A stretch of 64,000 nt of DNA. Origin: Oscillospiraceae bacterium. GTDB lineage: Bacteria; Bacillota; Clostridia; Oscillospirales; Ruminococcaceae. Below, piece by piece: positions 2,267 through 12,057 of this stretch. Numbering within the stretch: position 1 is the first letter of the stretch; each line of letters starts with the position of its first letter. The translations under genes and the position numbers were made by a program. Location of the stretch: assembly GCA_021200565.1 (NCBI GenBank), contig JAJQGJ010000017.1:154382-218381 (forward strand). Reading direction: 5' to 3'. The notes beneath the pieces were generated by a model. The model saw nothing but the letters and a program-made list of their open reading frames with translations, did no database searches and had not been told where the DNA came from.

Positions 2267-2326
2267 TTATTAAAGCTTAACACAAATAACTGTAGCTTAT
2301 TTTGGTTCTGTGCTGTGGGAGGGTCT

Positions 2327-3964
2327 ATGCTTAAAAGGGTTTCTTGTATCTTGACGGTTCTTGTTATGATTTTCTGCCTCTCATCCGGCAGTTATTTTCG
2401 TGCAAATGTATTTGCAGATGATGATACATCTATGGCTCTTCCATCTAAAGGAACCCTTACTGCCGGTACATATAAACTCACTTCTGATGTAACAATAACT
2501 AGCTACGTTACTGTCAGCTCCGGCACGGTGGTTACGATTGATTTGTGCGGATACTCCATAGTTGGTTCTGTAGGTCCTTTGATCACCGTCAATGGTGGAA
2601 CATTGAATCTGATTGACAGCAGCGAAAACGGAACCGGCTGCATCACAAATAAATTAACCAGTTCGTATGCTATCAAAGTTGCTAACAACGGAACATTGAA
2701 TATGTACGGTGGCAACGTCACCGGAGCTTATGGCATTTATATGGATGATACCAGCTGTGTTGTCAACATAACTGCTGGCTCCGTTACAGGTACGAAGTAT
2801 AATGCTGTTTATAACAAAAAGGGCACAGTTACAATCAGTGGTACTGAAAATGTATCTATATCAGCACTTGCCAGTGGCAGTGATAAATACGGAATATACT
2901 GTGGATCGGGCGGTCTGACAATATCAAATCCGAATACTTATGTAAGTGCGTCGAGTGCTTCAAAAGCCGTTTATAAACAGGCAACGACTAATATGAATAT
3001 TACTGCTGGGCACTATAGTACTACTGTGGAAAGATATGTTACAACCGAGGGATATTCCTGTAATGAGACCGATGACGCAGACTATCCTTATGTGGTTACG
3101 GCGGATGTCGTTGAGCCTGAGGTGGTTCTTCCTGCATTTTACGGCTGTGCACTCACTCTTGACGGCTACACCGGTGTTACATTCTACTATGATATGACTG
3201 GTGTTTCAAATCCGGATTCATTCACGCTTACAGCGAAAATAGGCTCGGACGGTGAGGAGCAAAGCATATCCGCTGGCACTACTAAAACCCTAGATAACGG
3301 AATTACCTACTACCGCTACACGGTTTATGTCAAGCCTCATGAATTCAGCACGCCTGTTTATGTGCGTCTCACTGATGGCACCAATGTGACTGAAACCCGC
3401 AAATACTCCGTGGAAGAGTACTGTATGTCTGCTATTGAGGACAATCTTGATGAGGCTGACCTCTGTAAAGCTCTTCTCAATTACGGCGATTATGCCACTG
3501 CATTTTACACTGGGGTCAGCTCCCAAAGTCTTGAAAGCATTGAAGGCTGGGTCGACCCTGTTACAGCAGAATTGGCTGTTGACCTGAGCGAATATTCTGG
3601 GACGGACACTCCCGGAACTGCAAAAGGCTTGCTTCTTGGAAGCTCAGTCGTTATCAGAATTTATCTGATGCCGGATGTTGCGAGCGAAAGTGACAGCTTC
3701 ACTTATAACGGCACAGCTCTGGAGCTGTATGCGGTTGATGATGAAAGCTATTCCTACTATATCGAATTTCCGGTTCCGGCCAGTGATATGTCAAGTACCT
3801 TGACAGTTTACAAAAACGGTGAAGAGTTCACTTCCTACAGCGTCCTGTCTTATGTGTATAATATAGTGCAGAAAGAGGGAAGCTCCGATTCAGCGCTAGT
3901 TAATCTCTGTAAAGCTATTTACTATTACAGTGTTGCAGCAGATAACTACGATTTCTGGCATTAA
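2327..3964 (+). CDS. Secreted beta-helix repeat protein
   Basis: A secreted protein of 545 residues. An upstream in-frame GTG (2315) exists, but GGGAGGG at 2317-2323 points to the ATG at 2327, which begins a clean signal peptide (MLKRVSCILTVLVM, cleavage near ANVFA-DD). Residues about 40-245 are Gly/Ser/Thr/Asn-rich short beta repeats (GTLNMYGGNVTG, GSVTGTKYN) typical of a right-handed beta-helix. The C-terminal half holds two units with a helical segment of the type LCKALLNYGDYA and LVNLCKAIYYYS, seen in many gut-Firmicute secreted proteins of unknown function. No anchor or catalytic motif is recognised. Together with the next gene it forms the first of two similar modules. A surface or carbohydrate-related role is inference. 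Confidence 0.75.
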   Translation: MLKRVSCILTVLVMIFCLSSGSYFRANVFADDDTSMALPSKGTLTAGTYKLTSDVTITSYVTVSSGTVVTIDLCGYSIVGSVGPLITVNGGTLNLIDSSENGTGCITNKLTSSYAIKVANNGTLNMYGGNVTGAYGIYMDDTSCVVNITAGSVTGTKYNAVYNKKGTVTISGTENVSISALASGSDKYGIYCGSGGLTISNPNTYVSASSASKAVYKQATTNMNITAGHYSTTVERYVTTEGYSCNETDDADYPYVVTADVVEPEVVLPAFYGCALTLDGYTGVTFYYDMTGVSNPDSFTLTAKIGSDGEEQSISAGTTKTLDNGITYYRYTVYVKPHEFSTPVYVRLTDGTNVTETRKYSVEEYCMSAIEDNLDEADLCKALLNYGDYATAFYTGVSSQSLESIEGWVDPVTAELAVDLSEYSGTDTPGTAKGLLLGSSVVIRIYLMPDVASESDSFTYNGTALELYAVDDESYSYYIEFPVPASDMSSTLTVYKNGEEFTSYSVLSYVYNIVQKEGSSDSALVNLCKAIYYYSVAADNYDFWH

Positions 3965-3987: not shown

Positions 3988-4704
3988 ATGAAGCGTCGCA
4001 GAACCGTTCTTATCTGCATTGCAGTACTGTGCATAACTGCTATGCTTTCTGGCTGTGTTCGCATAACTGTCTCAAGAGCTTCTTCTGAGCAAAAAACTGC
4101 AGAGGTTACTGTTATCACGGTTGAGGAGACAACTCCCGCTATCACTACTGTCACCACGGAAGAAACATCACCGCTGCCAGCAACCACTGCTCCTGAAGCT
4201 TCTGAGTCTGTCTCTTCTGCAACTACTTCTGAATCTGAAGCAGAGCCTGCTGTCACTACTGCTCCTGAAACTCAGAATTCTGTCACGACAACCACTGTGG
4301 CAACAACCAGGAAACAGGCAACAGCCGTGGTTTCTTCTGATAATTCAGACGAAGTCGAGCTTGATGAGTCTGACGAAATCGTTTCTTTGGATGAATCTGA
4401 CGAAATTGTCGATCTTTCCGATGAAGCTTCAGAGGTCTTCTATTTCTATGATCCCGGCGTTTCGCCATCAGTCACCATCATTTTTGAGCTCGGCAGTGAA
4501 GTCACAACTACTTCTGCAACTGAAGCTTCCTCATCAGAAACAACTACTACCATTGAGCCTACCTCTTCGGAAACCTCCGCAACTACCACTACTGAGGGGA
4601 CAACCACCGCAGCGACAACCTCAACAGCGCAATCCACCAAGCCCTACATCAGCGTCTCCGACTCCCTGGGTCGCATCCCGCTTCCGATTGATCCTTTCGG
4701 ATAA
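3988..4704 (+). CDS. Acidic Thr/Ser-rich lipoprotein
   Basis: A 238-residue protein with a lipoprotein signal peptide (basic MKRRR, hydrophobic core, lipobox LSGC near residue 23). The mature part is low complexity: Thr/Ser/Glu tracts flank an acidic repeat in which LDESDEIV occurs with minor variation. A short distinct C-terminus ends in PLPIDPFG. It lies 23 bp after the beta-helix gene, so it is probably co-transcribed. Low-complexity Thr-rich tracts usually act as cell-wall-spanning stalks. No folded domain is recognised and the function is unknown. It resembles the lipoprotein at 11138-11788 in composition and in the LDESDE-type motif. Confidence 0.75.
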   Translation: MKRRRTVLICIAVLCITAMLSGCVRITVSRASSEQKTAEVTVITVEETTPAITTVTTEETSPLPATTAPEASESVSSATTSESEAEPAVTTAPETQNSVTTTTVATTRKQATAVVSSDNSDEVELDESDEIVSLDESDEIVDLSDEASEVFYFYDPGVSPSVTIIFELGSEVTTTSATEASSSETTTTIEPTSSETSATTTTEGTTTAATTSTAQSTKPYISVSDSLGRIPLPIDPFG

Positions 4705-4740
4705 TATTGTTTCAGATTGCGCATTTTTTTAAAAAACCTC

Positions 4741-4769
4741 TTGACAACCCCCACAATGAGTATTATAAT
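4741..4769 (+). promoter_or_regulatory. Consensus sigma-A promoter of the giant beta-helix gene
   Basis: Perfect TTGACA (4741-4746), 17 bp, perfect TATAAT (4764-4769). It is among the strongest promoters in the window. Transcription from about 4777 gives a leader of roughly 190 nt. Confidence 0.85.
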
Positions 4770-4776
4770 GTTTATA

Positions 4777-4970
4777 TGTGGTGGAAGGGCATGATAATGC
4801 TTAACCACAAAAAACATTGCGGGGGGGTACTGGTTCCCCGGCGCGAAATTTTTTCGACGTCCCATGAACCTTGATGCCCACATCAAACCTCCGACGCTAT
4901 CTAACAAGTGCAACGGAGGATTTTTTCTAATATTTTTCCTCCTTGTGCTAACACTAAGGAGGAATTTTTT
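4777..4970 (+). promoter_or_regulatory. Structured mRNA leader with alternative hairpins (candidate riboswitch or attenuator)
   Basis: The leader holds several hairpins: TGTGGT/ACCACA (4777-4809), CGGGG/CCCCG (4820-4840), CGAAA/TTTCG (4844-4856) and TTGATG/CATCAA (4871-4886). Four complementary segments follow: a = CCTCCG (4888-4893), b = CGGAGGA (4914-4920), c = TTCCTCCTT (4936-4944), d = AAGGAGGAA (4956-4964, containing the SD). Pairing a:b, followed by T6, makes a terminator. Pairing c:d, extended by GTG/CAC, buries the SD. Pairing b:c, extended by GTGCAA/TTGTGC, undoes both. This is the layout of a dual transcription/translation expression platform. No known riboswitch class was recognised in the upstream part. 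Confidence 0.6.
4888..4926 (+). terminator. Conditional leader terminator
   Basis: CCTCCG (4888-4893) pairs with CGGAGG (4914-4919), then A and TTTTTT (4921-4926). The stem is only 6 bp with a 20-nt loop, so it would be weak by itself. It competes with the downstream pairing. Confidence 0.45.
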
Positions 4971-5174
4971 ATGGCGAAACGTCTTATGTGCGTCATACTA
5001 AGCGTTTTAATGATCGTCTCACTCCTTCCCACCGGTGCGTTTGCCGTCGACTCAGAAGAAACAGTAGTCGAACTAGCAGACACACCCGAGACCGTTGTTG
5101 AGACGACGGATGACTCTGACGGAGAGGAGGAAGAAGCCGACACACCCACTTCGGACGACGAACCGGTTGTGTAA
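4971..5174 (+). CDS. N-terminal fragment of giant beta-helix surface protein (signal peptide, cut by in-frame TAA)
   Basis: It starts at ATG 4971 behind AAGGAGG (4956-4962). The first 27 or so residues are a textbook signal peptide (MAKRLMCVILSVLMIVSLLP, cleavage after GAFA). An acidic Glu/Asp/Thr stretch follows and ends at a TAA at 5172-5174 (67 aa). The reading frame continues unbroken past this stop for another 1,860 or so codons with the same acidic character (VTEEVVEETLLG), and the long ORF at 5277 is in exactly the same frame. This is therefore the start of one secreted protein split by a single nonsense codon. A GAA-to-TAA change is the simplest origin. Sequencing error, recent inactivation or readthrough are all possible. 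Confidence 0.7.
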   Translation: MAKRLMCVILSVLMIVSLLPTGAFAVDSEETVVELADTPETVVETTDDSDGEEEEADTPTSDDEPVV

Positions 5175-5276: not shown

Positions 5277-8200
5277 TTGCAAGAAGCTGTTAATGCTGCT
5301 AGTGGAAGCACCGTAACACTCACCAGTAATGTTACATTGACTGGTACCCTCAATATCTACAATAGCATCACGCTTGCTCTTGGCGACTACACAATTACAA
5401 GCTCGGCTTCTGAAAAGGCTGTTTATACGACCAATACCCTTGTGATTACAGCTGGCAATGGCGGTATTACTGCAACAGCTGGTACTGCTATCACTAATCA
5501 AAAAGGCAGTGGTAGCGGATCTTTGACAATCAATGGCGGTACATATACGTCAAGTACAGCTAATGCTATTTATAATAACGGCGGTACTGTTACTATAAAT
5601 AGTGGATCTGTTACAACAACAGGCTCAACTGCATATGATGCTATTCTTTGTTCTTCTAGTGCGACTGTAACTGTTAACGGCGGCACTATCAACGGAACAA
5701 GATATGGCATTTATAGTACTGGTTCTGTTGTAATAACCAATGGAACAGTATCAGGTACAACTGCCGGTGTTTGCCTTGAAGGCGGAACTGCTACTATCAG
5801 TGGCGGCTCAATCAGCGGTGCAGAAGGCTTAAAGGCAACAAGCAGTGTTACAAGTATTTCGATTACCGAAGGTACTTTCACTGGCACAACACACGGTGCT
5901 TATGTTGCTTGCGATAATGTGACAGTTTCGGGCGGTACATTCTCAGCTACAGCAGACTGGTCCAGTTATCCCGTCGGATTCTACCTTGGAAGTGGCACAA
6001 GCGTTACTTTCTCCGGCGGTACTTTCAGCGGAAAGTATGCCCCAGTATGGAAAGCTGATTCTAATTGCACTATCAGCTATGGCGAAGGTTGTGCAGTAAA
6101 TACCGGAGACCTTACTGATAACAACAGCTTTTCTTCACCTGATACGATAACAAGGTCTGTTATTAAGGCTGTTGCTTCTATCACATCTGGTGGCACAACG
6201 ACAAATTATACATCCCTTGCCGCTGCCATCACCGCAGCCGGCACGACTTCAACCGAAATCGTCCTGCTCGCTGATACCGTCGAAGATGTTGAAATCCCGA
6301 GCGGCGCCAACATCACCCTCGATCTTAACGGCTACACGATTACCAACTCTACAACCCACACTATCATTAACTATGGTACTTTGACCATTATGGATAGTAG
6401 CGAGGGTGAAACTGGTACAGTCGACTGCGTAACTCATGCCTGCGCTGCACTTTATAACTACGGCACTATCACCGAAATCAGCGGCGGCACGTTTACACGT
6501 AGTGCTGAGCAGCCTTACCCATTGGCAGATGGCGTTAGCGCGAATTCTTGGTACACAGTTTACAATATCGGCACGATTACTTTAATCAGCGGCGGCACGT
6601 TCACGACCGGCGATGGCTCGTCTGAAAGCCTTGGAAACAATTCAAGCTTGATTTGTAATGGTGATGACGGTTCGAATCCTGGTACCATTACCACGATTTC
6701 AGGAGGCACGTTCACTGGCGCTGGAAACATCATAAAGAATGCTTCTGGTAGTTCAATAGGAACAATCAGTGGCGGCACGTTCACCATGGACAATACTGTA
6801 CATGGCTGGTGGGGTGGAAATAACCTCATTCAGAATAAGACCAATGCTACAATCGGTTCTATTACTGGTGGTACGTTCAATGCTCTTGGAACGGGTGTGT
6901 CTGCCAATGAAACTTATGCTACTGCGTATAACAGATACTTCCTCTCAACATACAGTAACGTTTCGATTAGCGATGCAACAATAGTTGTTGAAGGCGATCA
7001 GAATGTCGTTATCGATGTTGCTAGCGACAATACTACTGTTACCCTTACAGATACCACTGTTACGATTGATGAGGGTAGCACTACAACACTTGTCAGAACA
7101 ACAGGAACGTCATCTGTTAGCGGCGGTACATACTATCTTTATGACACGGATGAGGGAACATCGGTAACTGCGAGCTTGGTTGCAACTGTTGTTGCAAAAG
7201 ATAGTACAAATGCTTACTATTACACCTCCGTCGAAGATGCTTTCACTGCTGCGAGTGACGGATGCACAGTGACATTACTTGCTGATGCTTCTATGACTTC
7301 ATACTACACAGTAAGTGGCGGAAAGTCTATCACATTGGATTTGGATGGATATACCTTAGAAACTAAATTGAACGTCAGAAACGGTAGCCTGACTGTCAAG
7401 AACGGTACAATCAGTGGCACACAGCCGTTGAATGTTTACGGCAGCGCAGAGGATGTTTCTGGTTACTCAACTTTGACCATTGAAGATACTGTCACCATTT
7501 CAGATGCATACTGGGGCATTTGTCTGTTCCCGAATACTAATTCTGACAAGCTCGGATACGGTGCAACCATCAACTTGTATGGTAAAATTATTAGTGAAGA
7601 TGATAGCACTGGTATCTTCATCAGTGGTAACCTTGGCAATAGCTCTGAAACAGCTTCCGCTATGGCAGCTTCAAGTAATGCTTCGGTTGTAAACATCTAT
7701 GGCACAATCACAACTGGCAATCAGGCAGTTGCCATGAACGGCTACGCTATCGTAAACGTTAACTCTGGTGCAAAAATCACCGGTTCCGAAGCCATAGGCG
7801 TTAAGCGTGGCGTGCTGAATGTTTCCGGCGGCGAACTGACCGCTACTGGCGACTATGTCGACCCGGCAACCGCCAACTATAACGGCACAGAATCCACCGG
7901 TGCGGCGATCTCTGTCACCAGTACTTATAACTACGCTGGCACCATCGTTGTCAACGTCACCGGCGGCACTATTAAGAGTGCAAACGGCAATGCGCTCTAT
8001 ATCGGTCATTCGGGCTCAGAGTCTTCGACTACAACCTACTCAACTGGTTTGAACGTATCTATCACCGGCGGTGATTTCTCAACCTCTGCAGAATCAGGTG
8101 ATGTTGCTACAGTCTATGTAGCAGAAGCAGAAGAGGGCGACGCTGAGAGCTATACTCAGGCTATCATCTCGGGCGGTACTTTTGATTCGGATGTTAGTGA

Positions 8201-10760
8201 GTACTGTGTGAGCGGTATGGCAGCTGAATATGACACGGAAACTCAGTCCTACGGCATTGTTGCAGCGAAGGTAGCGTCTATCACGAGTGGGGATACAACA
8301 ACATACTATACCTCCCTCGCAGATGCGGTCTCTGCGGCATCCAGCACCGACACTATCACTATACTTTCTGACATAAGTGAGCTGGATACGATAGTAATTA
8401 CTGATGGTAAAACTGTCACGATTGATTTGAACGATCACACCATCACATTTGCCTATGAATGTAACTTTAGATTACAGAATGGCAGCCTTACTCTGACCGG
8501 AACCGGAACAGTTCGGGAAAAGGAAGACTATTACTATTATGCTCCTATTATGTTGTATGGCATGACAAGTAGTGAACAGTCAAATACTCTTGTTGTTGAT
8601 TCTGGTGTAACATTGAAGGGCTGGGCAGGTATATTCATAAATGCCAAATCCGAATGGGACTATTATTCGATGGATATTACATTCTCAGGAACAATAGTGT
8701 CCCAAAAAGATGTTGATAATACTGAAGGATCTGGCATTTACTTGAATGGAGTTGCTAAGAATACAACTTATTATCCTACAATTACCATCAAAGATGGTGC
8801 TAGTATTACCAATGAAGATGGTCATGGCATATACGCAGCAGGATATGGTGTATGGAATATTGAAGGCGGCACAATTACCTCTGCGTATACCGGAATTGAA
8901 ATTCGTGCAGGTGTACTGAATATTTCTGGTGGCGAAATTAAGAGCACGAAGACTGATTTTAATACATCTGCGAATAGAGATGGTGAAACTGTCTTCGGAG
9001 CTGGTGTGGCGATTTCTCAGCACACCACGGTATTGCCGTTGACAGTAAATATAACCGGTGGAACTATCTCCGGCTACTACGGCATCTACGAAATCAACTA
9101 CAACAGCAGCAACACAAACTCTGTCACTGTAAATGTTTCTGGCGATGATACAAAGGTAACCGCAACTGGTTCTGGAGCTTCTGCAATCTACAGTGTATCT
9201 GTAACTGGCGATGATTCAGTCAGCGCATCAACAAACTCAATCACTACGATTGCTGTTTCCGGCGGTAGCTTCTCAAGCATAGTTCCAGAAGCATACTGCG
9301 CAACTGGTTACTCACCTGTAACTGAAGCAACCGACGGTTACTATACAGTAACTGTTTCTGATAGCATGATCCTTCAGCTTACCACAACATCTGGAGCTTC
9401 GACATGCTACTCATCACTTGCTGATGCACTCGCAGCTGCAACTTCCGGTGACACCATCACCTTGCTTGATAACGTATCAATCACAACTGCTGCAACCGCA
9501 TCAGTTTCGATGACTATCGACCTTAATGGTAATACGCTTACAATCGGTGATTCGGTTGATACAGATATGGTTACGCTTACTGTTGCTGAAGGTGCATCGG
9601 TTGATACAGATATGGTTACGCTTACTGTTGCTGAAGGTGCAACGGTAGTCATTATTGACAGCAGCGAAGATGAGAAGGGTGTCGTCGCCAACTACGGCAC
9701 AATCTCCATCAGCGGTACTCTTGACATTCGTGATCTCGGCTATACCACCGATGCTACAAGTGCTGGCGGTCTCCTTGGTCAGACCAGCGGCAAGACAGAG
9801 ATGGCTGCAACCGGCGTGTTCATAGTTCCGGATGTTTGGGCGACAATGTGGTCAACTTCAGATAGCGACGTTTGGTCTCCGAACTGGACTTCTGCTACAG
9901 GTTCTTACTCCTATGGCAGTACAACTTATACTGGTATCTTCTCATCATTGGCAGTTGGCGCAAAGGTTTACACTTCCGGCACAGGCTATAAGTGCGCAAC
10001 TGAATTCGCACAGAACTCTTATGATGCTAATGTAAAATACTGGTCAACCGACAATTCTTACCTCGTTGAGTACTACAAGGAGTCCAACGGAAAAGTACTT
10101 AGCACTTACAATTACCCCGATGCAGTTGAAGACAACACCATCTTTGCAGGTTGGTATTTAGATAGTGGTTACGCTACTGTTTATACTGCTACCAATGGCG
10201 TCGCCTACGCCAAGTTTGTCCAGCTCAGCTCGACTACAGATACTGACGGCAACGTCACTGCCGGTGTCATCAACTTCTTGGGTGGTTCGTTGAGAACGAA
10301 TTACAAGAAAACTGATGAAGATGGAAATGAAACTGATGAGACAGACTACTCCATGGCTGACCTCAGATTCGGCTATGATGTATTCATTCCGGATGACTGC
10401 GAAGTTGTTAGCTGGAGCTGGTTGTATACTAAGCAGAATAGTACAACTCAAAAAACAGTAAACGGAGTTTACTACTCAAAGACTTTGAGTGAGACTACTT
10501 ACACCACAAATAAAGTAGCATCAGAAGACAACGAATCTGCTTTCCGCTCTAACTTGGTTCTTACTGGTATATCTGTAGAGGATTATGGACTTGAACGTTA
10601 TTCCAAGATGACAGTTGTCTATGAAACTGCGGACGGAACTACAGTAACTGCTACTGATGTTGTTCAGACTCGTACAGTCACGCAGGTTGCAAATGGACTT
10701 GGCAGAAGTGACACTCAGGGAGCTGGTATACTTGCAGCTATTGATGCGTTGAGTTCGTAA
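5277..10760 (+). CDS. Giant secreted beta-helix adhesin-like protein, body
   Basis: The open frame runs from 5175. The first possible start (TTG 5277) has no SD, so the natural start is ATG 4971 and this body lacks its own secretion signal. It contains about five repeats of a unit opening with Y-x-S-L-x-x-A-(8-10)-T(I/V)TLL, then a D-L-N/D-G-Y-T-I strand, then Gly/Thr-rich beta-helix coils (SGGTF, ISGGEI). Unit starts are near 5270, 6170, 7195, 8275 and 9380. The C-terminus has one Listeria-Bacteroides-type repeat (IFAGWYLDSGYA) and a terminal domain with FLGGSLRTNY and DLRFGYDVFIP. No sortase motif or membrane anchor is seen at the end (AAIDALSS). Likely role: adhesion or glycan contact at the cell surface, by inference from architecture. 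Confidence 0.7.
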   Translation: MQEAVNAASGSTVTLTSNVTLTGTLNIYNSITLALGDYTITSSASEKAVYTTNTLVITAGNGGITATAGTAITNQKGSGSGSLTINGGTYTSSTANAIYNNGGTVTINSGSVTTTGSTAYDAILCSSSATVTVNGGTINGTRYGIYSTGSVVITNGTVSGTTAGVCLEGGTATISGGSISGAEGLKATSSVTSISITEGTFTGTTHGAYVACDNVTVSGGTFSATADWSSYPVGFYLGSGTSVTFSGGTFSGKYAPVWKADSNCTISYGEGCAVNTGDLTDNNSFSSPDTITRSVIKAVASITSGGTTTNYTSLAAAITAAGTTSTEIVLLADTVEDVEIPSGANITLDLNGYTITNSTTHTIINYGTLTIMDSSEGETGTVDCVTHACAALYNYGTITEISGGTFTRSAEQPYPLADGVSANSWYTVYNIGTITLISGGTFTTGDGSSESLGNNSSLICNGDDGSNPGTITTISGGTFTGAGNIIKNASGSSIGTISGGTFTMDNTVHGWWGGNNLIQNKTNATIGSITGGTFNALGTGVSANETYATAYNRYFLSTYSNVSISDATIVVEGDQNVVIDVASDNTTVTLTDTTVTIDEGSTTTLVRTTGTSSVSGGTYYLYDTDEGTSVTASLVATVVAKDSTNAYYYTSVEDAFTAASDGCTVTLLADASMTSYYTVSGGKSITLDLDGYTLETKLNVRNGSLTVKNGTISGTQPLNVYGSAEDVSGYSTLTIEDTVTISDAYWGICLFPNTNSDKLGYGATINLYGKIISEDDSTGIFISGNLGNSSETASAMAASSNASVVNIYGTITTGNQAVAMNGYAIVNVNSGAKITGSEAIGVKRGVLNVSGGELTATGDYVDPATANYNGTESTGAAISVTSTYNYAGTIVVNVTGGTIKSANGNALYIGHSGSESSTTTYSTGLNVSITGGDFSTSAESGDVATVYVAEAEEGDAESYTQAIISGGTFDSDVSEYCVSGMAAEYDTETQSYGIVAAKVASITSGDTTTYYTSLADAVSAASSTDTITILSDISELDTIVITDGKTVTIDLNDHTITFAYECNFRLQNGSLTLTGTGTVREKEDYYYYAPIMLYGMTSSEQSNTLVVDSGVTLKGWAGIFINAKSEWDYYSMDITFSGTIVSQKDVDNTEGSGIYLNGVAKNTTYYPTITIKDGASITNEDGHGIYAAGYGVWNIEGGTITSAYTGIEIRAGVLNISGGEIKSTKTDFNTSANRDGETVFGAGVAISQHTTVLPLTVNITGGTISGYYGIYEINYNSSNTNSVTVNVSGDDTKVTATGSGASAIYSVSVTGDDSVSASTNSITTIAVSGGSFSSIVPEAYCATGYSPVTEATDGYYTVTVSDSMILQLTTTSGASTCYSSLADALAAATSGDTITLLDNVSITTAATASVSMTIDLNGNTLTIGDSVDTDMVTLTVAEGASVDTDMVTLTVAEGATVVIIDSSEDEKGVVANYGTISISGTLDIRDLGYTTDATSAGGLLGQTSGKTEMAATGVFIVPDVWATMWSTSDSDVWSPNWTSATGSYSYGSTTYTGIFSSLAVGAKVYTSGTGYKCATEFAQNSYDANVKYWSTDNSYLVEYYKESNGKVLSTYNYPDAVEDNTIFAGWYLDSGYATVYTATNGVAYAKFVQLSSTTDTDGNVTAGVINFLGGSLRTNYKKTDEDGNETDETDYSMADLRFGYDVFIPDDCEVVSWSWLYTKQNSTTQKTVNGVYYSKTLSETTYTTNKVASEDNESAFRSNLVLTGISVEDYGLERYSKMTVVYETADGTTVTATDVVQTRTVTQVANGLGRSDTQGAGILAAIDALSS
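9552..9641 (+). repeat. Perfect 45-bp tandem duplication
   Basis: Two identical 45-bp copies (9552-9596 and 9597-9641) encode a duplicated 15-residue segment, SVDTDMVTLTVAEGA. The frame is kept and one beta-helix rung is added. The lack of any difference between copies points to a recent event. Confidence 0.9.
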
Positions 10761-11799: not shown

Positions 11800-12057
11800 A
11801 TGTCACGCAGAAAATTACCCCCGGAGGTTCTTGAGGAACACTTGCGCCGGCAAAAGAAAATCGATAGGAAGAGATACTACGGCAAGACCGCAAATCTCTA
11901 TCCTAGGCACGCCTGGACTAAGGAGGAAGAGAAGCTGGTCATGGAGCACTCCATGCCTGATAGCGAGCTCTCCTTGAAGATTGGGCGGTCTCTCAAATCA
12001 ATTCAAGAAAAACGTCGCCGTCTGAAAAGCAACGAAACCGAATCAACTGACGAATAA
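11800..12057 (+). CDS. Small Myb/SANT-like helix-turn-helix protein
   Basis: An 85-residue basic protein 11 bp after the lipoprotein, with AAGGG before the ATG. Residues about 38-77 (HAWTKEEEKLVMEHS, then LSLKIGRSLKSIQEKRRRLK) match the Myb/SANT-like fold in which W-T-x-E-E-E opens helix 1 and the IGRS-x-x-(S/A)-(I/V)-Q-x-(K/R)-R segment is the recognition helix. Such small proteins occur in Firmicutes and their phages, and their target here is unknown. The acidic tail TESTDE is short. It probably binds DNA, perhaps regulating the envelope genes before it (inference). Confidence 0.6.
   Translation: MSRRKLPPEVLEEHLRRQKKIDRKRYYGKTANLYPRHAWTKEEEKLVMEHSMPDSELSLKIGRSLKSIQEKRRRLKSNETESTDE

Follow-up and report, generated by a model that had tools for sequence, protein, structure and literature searches.

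The window, a stretch of DNA of 64,000 nucleotides, contains upstream of a putative surface-protein gene a leader in which four short segments, a, b, c and d, are mutually complementary. This arrangement raises the question of whether the leader is a switch that acts on both transcription and translation and, if so, to which class of RNA it belongs and what could operate it. In the initial annotation, a:b plus c:d was proposed as an OFF state and b:c as an ON state, and no known riboswitch class was recognised. The latter statement agrees with a search of Rfam 15, in which no family, T-box included, was reached: there were no matches over the gathering score in the window, and 16 related loci gave only a tRNA. 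At relaxed thresholds, PyrR, NsiR1, ncr1575, trpB, Phe_leader and other names were returned, all of them sub-threshold (best E 0.055), including the PyrR leader (RF00515; E 8.7, scoring 15.8 bits where 54 are required), and these were rejected. No description of the leader was found in the literature searched, a body that excluded most subscription papers and all bioRxiv preprints. The analyses described below indicate that it is probably a default-OFF switching leader belonging to a family absent from Rfam.

Layout of the leader

Coordinates are positions within the window, and all features of the leader lie on the + strand, as follows (the evidence is given after the semicolon).

4741–4769, +, sigma-A-type promoter, TTGACA (4741–4746) and TATAAT (4764–4769) with a 17-nt spacer; 12/12 consensus matches
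4778–4808, +, 5′ hairpin P0, GTGGT (4778–4782) with ACCAC (4804–4808), containing the conserved GGAAGGGC; 23-copy alignment and minimum-energy fold
4820–4823, +, 5′ strand of P1, C4820 followed by GGG from the G-tract at 4821–4827; covariation with the base after CCUCC
4825–4879, +, hairpin P2, GGGUA (4825–4829) with UGCCC (4875–4879); compensatory changes in the family
4888–4893, +, segment a, CCTCCG, whose partner is b or, via UCCG (4890–4893), the 5′ strand of P1; sequence
4908–4920, +, segment b, CGGAGGA (4914–4920), plus a 5′ extension (GTGCAACGGAGGA); pair counts and own-versus-swapped test
4921–4926, +, T6 after a:b, the first presumed termination point; sequence, with a T-run after a:b in 60/65 parsed leaders
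4936–4948, +, segment c, TTCCTCCTT (4936–4944), with a 3′ extension (TTCCTCCTTGTGC); own-versus-swapped test
4956–4964, +, segment d, the Shine-Dalgarno (SD) sequence AAGGAGGAA; 9/9 pairs in c:d
4965–4970, +, T6 after c:d, the second presumed termination point, abutting the ATG at 4971; T-run after c:d in 63/65 parsed leaders
4971–5174, +, first frame after the leader, 67 aa, with the Sec-type signal peptide MAKRLMCVILSVLMIVSLLPTGAFA and ending at TAA 5172–5174; sequence
5277–10760, +, same frame beyond the stop (piece only), a putative beta-helix surface protein rich in repeats; sequence

Indices computed from the sequence place the segments where they had been reported (a at 4888, b at 4914, c at 4936 and d at 4956), and the promoter described as perfect indeed has 12/12 matches to TTGACA/TATAAT with a spacer of 17; the same promoter arrangement is found in most of the close copies of the leader. 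P0 is putatively part of a sensor.

Folding of the window copy

The segments of the window copy pair at 6/6 positions in a:b, 6/6 in b:c (GGAGGA:UCCUCC) and 9/9 in c:d. The extension of b:c by GTGCAA/TTGTGC is present and is formed by 4908–4913 with 4943–4948, C4914 being bulged; the inner extension of c:d by GTG/CAC also exists in this copy but is not general across the family. The folding energy of 4780–4980 is −68.2, versus −48.05 (sd 3.96) in 200 shuffles (z −5.09), none of which folds as well (0/200). The minimum-energy fold of 4779–4986 (−73.0) contains both a:b and c:d, and the proposed OFF state with a buried SD is thus the predicted ground structure of the window copy. When only b:c was enforced, the best fold had a paired with d, and therefore a free SD requires that a be held elsewhere. 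The proposed ON state is upheld as regards its 6/6 pairs and the own-versus-swapped support described below, but b:c by itself may leave the SD paired.

A consensus terminator scan of 4650–5050 called none; by its standards, the stem of a:b is discontinuous and c:d has a long loop. The earlier designation of a terminator accordingly rests on the stem and the T-run, which are both present, and does not extend to a call by the scan. A sensor made of four upstream hairpins had also been suggested and is upheld only in part; P2 stands by its compensatory changes, and the sequence of P0 is conserved in 23 close copies but is not common to the second-tier leaders described below. Overlooked at that stage were P1, which links a to the upstream domain, the existence of a family, and the possibility that a pairs with d and so hides the SD again.

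Distribution and anatomy of the family

A blastn search of the window's own genome identified two more copies, one of them diverged. Among 99 relative genomes (own included), matches were obtained in eight: six genomes of the genus had long matches (weaker in G002), and two others, G033 and G075, had matches of 21–28 bases only. A sequence-only model (R1) built from 22 copies matched 14 of the 31 genus genomes, three of them marginally, and revealed a second tier of leaders that are mostly shorter. A covariance model of the leader core (R2), built from 15 sequences, yielded 106 matches in 11 of the 31 genomes of this genus, with 3 to 18 per genome and 11 in the window's own; the R1 matches in G009, G016 and G018 (E 0.003–0.01) were not recovered by R2 and were taken as chance. 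R2 matched only two genus members among 396 genomes drawn from the family, those two and G467 (locus L154) among 394 genomes of the order, and only the own genome among 391 of the class. Because these wider searches score few candidates and use stricter filters, weak relatives could be missed. L154 (E 2.6e-4), the sole match from outside the family, reads as an ordinary terminator and was dropped. An exact pattern search of a genome collection returned 13 stretches, all from MAGs (seven Oscillospiraceae, five Ruminococcus sp. and one Clostridiales), and the leader was absent from phage records (blastn) and viral contigs (exact pattern). As far as seen, the leader is a multi-copy element of one clade. 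Close copies have leader and signal-peptide DNA in common, and identical leaders occur on different contigs (L017 and L022). The cores of L156 and L157, on contigs C5 and C21 of the own genome, are likewise identical, and each lies before a short first frame only.

The order of elements is near-universal and consists of Y, a tract of 5–9 G, UA and P2, whose closing pairs are GGGU/ACCC; a short link then leads to CCUCCR (a), followed downstream by a loop with CACU/AGUG in many members and by b (GGRGG). In close copies, P0 carries the conserved motif GGAAGGG. Compensatory changes in P2 were found at 4/9 pairs in 15 sequences and at 7/9 pairs in 68 distinct sequences, in an alignment fitted to the model; over the whole structure, the 68 sequences contain 80 double-changed cells, versus 24 in shuffles.

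Comparative tests of the helices

Leaders that could be parsed with all four segments number 65, one double row of L040 having been removed; the parsing pattern itself selected leaders for the core motifs, and L003, L072, L086 and L088, which are diverged and devoid of the G-tract/a core, fall outside this set. In the own-versus-swapped test, the pairing energy of the leader's own segments is compared with that of segments exchanged among leaders, using sets of 40, 20 and 10 diverged representatives, whereby relatedness is lowered while the statistics ignore kinship. For these three sets, respectively, the z values were −6.7, −3.9 and −3.0 for b:c and −6.5, −5.2 and −3.0 for c:d, and for either helix 0/5000 swaps were as good at 40. 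The values for a:b were −2.4, −0.7 and +0.9; such a loss of signal is expected because a:b is a near-invariant helix, and the test is not proof of a:b. The control pairs a:d, b:d, a:c and G-tract:c gave no own-versus-swapped signal. When the invariant GGRGG:CCUCC core was replaced with a fixed clamp, the flanks of b:c alone retained z values of −6.6, −4.0 and −3.1, and those of c:d gave −4.0 and −3.5 and then lost significance at 10 representatives (−1.45; 426/5000). The outcome originally named as refuting, an absence of covariation across homologous leaders, is not borne out: homologues exist, own segments surpass swapped ones in b:c and c:d, and the controls are null.

P1 is formed by YGGG (4820–4823) with UCCR (4890–4893). 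In 105 distinct copies, the bases that precede the G-tract and follow CCUCC are tied to each other, as C-G in 56, U-A in 27, U-G in 21 and A-G in one, with no C-A, and are hence compatible with P1 (C-G, U-A or U-G) in 104; Fisher's test gives p 0.016 for 29 diverged copies and 0.029 for 18. This count omits L154 and the reverse-strand matches L158:337 and L169:337 and includes five copies read by hand (L030, L173, L175, L176 and L186). Because P1 and a:b both use UCCR, they exclude each other, which gives a chain of alternatives, P1 / a:b / b:c / c:d. At the level of sequence comparison, P2, b:c, c:d, P1 and the family itself are supported.

The four diverged leaders outside the parsed set have retained the 5′ hairpin and the end with the SD, and their G-tract/a core is gone. 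In three of them b:c folds, and the sequence of this helix is entirely different in L003 and L072; the computed openness of the SD is 0.56 in L003, 0.67 in L072 and 0.19 in L086, and none of the 65 parsed leaders exceeds 0.5. The remaining one, L088, folds c:d and not b:c (SD 0.02). These four are perhaps unswitched versions of the leader.

Variants of the output

A long ORF starts directly after d in 57 of the 65 leaders (50 found by script, plus the seven GTG starts of L037–L039 and L066–L069), and in L009 a GTG after d opens only 27 codons. Seven of the 65 are without a start after d, and there c:d is a plain terminator-like hairpin; in three of these seven (L059, L074 and L110), the segments are changed to UCUCC with GGAGA. 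L052, L059, L074, L075 and L110 form a subgroup in which both hairpins resemble terminators and no start codon is adjacent; the next ORFs, 95–198 nt on, encode PP2C, Sel1, YbjN-like and TPR proteins in L052, L059, L074 and L110, and none was called for L075. Among leaders not in the set of 65, the helix a:b occurs without c:d in L160, L161, L189 and L194 (upstream of a protein for which at least 986 residues were retrieved), as well as in L190, which is cut by a contig end, and L162, which lies before a pilin. In some members the upstream core is thus joined to other outputs, in which c:d would serve as a terminator only or a:b stands by itself.

Genes downstream of the leaders

In the window, the in-frame TAA at 5172–5174 splits a long surface-protein frame and reflects either true pseudogene formation or a mistake in the assembly. 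The frame at 5277–10760 has no Pfam family above the cut-off, and "beta helix" is the name it received in the initial annotation; the Pfam domain Beta_helix was found in a family relative, L083. By a hydrophobicity rule, 84 of 103 distinct first ORFs appear to bear a signal peptide, versus 9 of 46 window ORFs (86/103 and 11/46, respectively, with a second look for both sets), a contrast that fits the suggestion of a leader for surface proteins. The secreted-looking first genes encode adhesins, pilins and beta-helix proteins. In 28 proteins scanned against Pfam, the domains identified included BspA-type LRR, SpaA, Gram-positive pilin backbone, Wzz, signal peptidase, acyltransferase, PP2C, Sel1, dynamin and beta helix, and 10 of the 28 had no match. 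Another secreted-looking repeat protein, encoded just upstream at 2315–3964 of the window, has neither this leader nor a Pfam match.

The close leaders L008, L015, L018 and L030 precede peptides of 39–60 aa, several of which contain a YEEP motif. A radical SAM protein follows one of these short-peptide leaders (Pfam above the cut-off; the nearest NCBIfam RiPP maturases score under their thresholds), and one or two of them are followed by a protein with weak similarity to HprK-related kinases. Since the short peptides adjoin radical SAM or HprK-like proteins, RiPP precursors are likely to be part of the regulon. An 85-aa basic protein (..AWTxEE..LSxKIGRS..), for which no Pfam or NCBIfam match was obtained, recurs within 3 kb of L008, L018, L030 and L084 (partial) and is encoded at 11800–12057 of the window.

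Energetics and a proposed switch

In 60 of the 65 leaders, the energy of the OFF state (a:b plus c:d) differs from the optimum by no more than 2 kcal/mol, and the computed probability of a:b exceeds 0.5 in 65/65 once b has been made; OFF is the ground state predicted by folding. The mean energy of the ON state (P1 plus b:c) exceeds that of OFF by 9.7 kcal/mol, and ON is the lower of the two in 2/65. Because OFF is favoured and ON lies some 10 kcal/mol higher, something must hold P1 for ON to be reached. Before b is transcribed, P1 has a median probability of 0.79 and exceeds 0.5 in 44/65, with only 0.08 in the window copy. We infer that P1 is the regulated stem, that the signal acts in the ON direction and that some partner would bind.

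The following mechanism is proposed. In the OFF state, a:b would form a terminator-like hairpin with its T-run, and c:d would form another hairpin, in which the SD is buried and which has a T-run of its own. A signal, most likely a small ligand at the G-tract/P2/P1 core and otherwise a protein, would hold P1. P1 would remove a from b, b would then take c, and d would be left single-stranded. A single event would in this way disarm both attenuators and allow read-through and translation. The leader can tentatively be read as a new riboswitch class in which the aptamer-closing stem P1 is the antiterminator, in which the relay runs from P1 to b:c to a free d, and which serves a surface regulon of adhesins, pilins, Wzz and RiPP precursors; as no GGDEF proteins are detectable in this clade, it may replace control by c-di-GMP there; this whole is possible, if somewhat doubtful.

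Candidate signals and alternative explanations

An RNA-binding protein, and not a metabolite, might hold P1, P0 or b:c, which would make the leader a protein-controlled antiterminator or attenuator. The conserved GGAAGGG motif in P0 of close copies would suit such a protein, as would the many copies per genome that serve one surface-type regulon, but there is no second NusG of the LoaP kind (exactly one PF02357 match in 30 of the 31 genomes and none in G020), and CsrA was found in 0/31 genus genomes by a search that was positive in 3/14 control genomes; protein control is therefore judged rather unlikely, though well worth considering. The PF02357 match spans 321–330 nt in the 11 leader genomes and 309–312 nt in the other 19 that have one, and a small NusG insertion marks the leader clade. 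A passive attenuator would need no sensor at all: two hairpins would keep surface-protein expression low and would have spread together with the genes through duplication and gene conversion. The leader and signal-peptide DNA shared by close copies, the identity of L017 and L022 and the dominance of OFF in silico are all in keeping with this, yet P1 and b:c covary in diverged copies, a device that is merely passive would have no need of them, and the core is retained while genes and outputs vary, so that the passive explanation appears improbable.

The choice between a:b and b:c could also be made by an antisense RNA or by a ribosome on a leader ORF, in the manner of pT181 or trp. The pairing scheme of a, b, c and d matches that of the trp attenuator, but no start codon occurs at a common place after GGAAGGG in 23 aligned copies inspected by eye, and attenuation of this type is considered decidedly improbable. 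That the leader is a diverged c-di-GMP riboswitch, as its regulon of adhesins, pili and Wzz might suggest, is scarcely credible. According to one report, C. difficile riboswitches of that kind control adhesins and pili (PMC11477304), a regulon similar to the present one; however, GGDEF was detected in 0/11 leader genomes versus 18/20 other genomes of the genus, RF01051 (c-di-GMP-I) occurs in the genus only in G008 and G021, both without the leader, and not in the window, and RF01786 (c-di-GMP-II) is over the cut-off in 0/31 genomes, with one sub-threshold match in the leader genome G024 (23 bits). GGDEF is also absent from G023 and G026, genus genomes without the leader. As a signal, c-di-GMP is disfavoured, and a small ligand, or a protein other than a second NusG or CsrA, remains.

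Significance

The leader, which precedes surface, pilus and secreted-protein genes in one clade, may represent a novel type of RNA sensor. As a candidate orphan riboswitch it has about ten copies in each genome and a single coherent regulon, and for this reason the search for its signal is tractable: the four-segment logic offers a clear read-out from just one purified leader. If the switch is real, a lineage without detectable GGDEF could still coordinate its adhesins and pili, and the leader would represent a compact natural design in which a single pairing event governs both transcription and translation.

Comparison with known systems

Riboswitches are characterised by a conserved structured core with compensatory changes, which is seen here in P2 and P1, and by a core stem that is exclusive with a helix of the platform, as holds structurally for P1 and a:b, which both need UCCR. 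The PyrR leader (RF00515), the best cis-regulatory name obtained, is weakly alike in its tandem hairpins and is linked to other genes. Class II c-di-GMP riboswitches of C. difficile are described as transcriptional ON switches (PMC11477304). The c-di-GMP riboswitches of Clostridia (RF01051/RF01786) resemble the leader in having many copies per genome before adhesin or pilus genes, but there is no match in sequence or structure, the leader genomes are without GGDEF, and the leader has a second, SD-burying hairpin. The trp attenuator has four segments with the exclusive pairings 1:2, 2:3 and 3:4. The leader shares this exclusive four-segment pairing but adds an upstream strand, that of P1, which competes for segment 1; its last helix buries the SD, and no conserved leader ORF was seen in its 23 aligned close copies. 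A combined transcription-translation RNA regulator reportedly builds on pT181, an antisense-controlled plasmid system. In that regulator, one RNA is reported to act on both processes (PMC5435934), whereas the leader would instead use two separate hairpins for the two outputs. The leader would thus be a riboswitch-like candidate with a trp-like relay and putative ligand binding, outside every named class tested.
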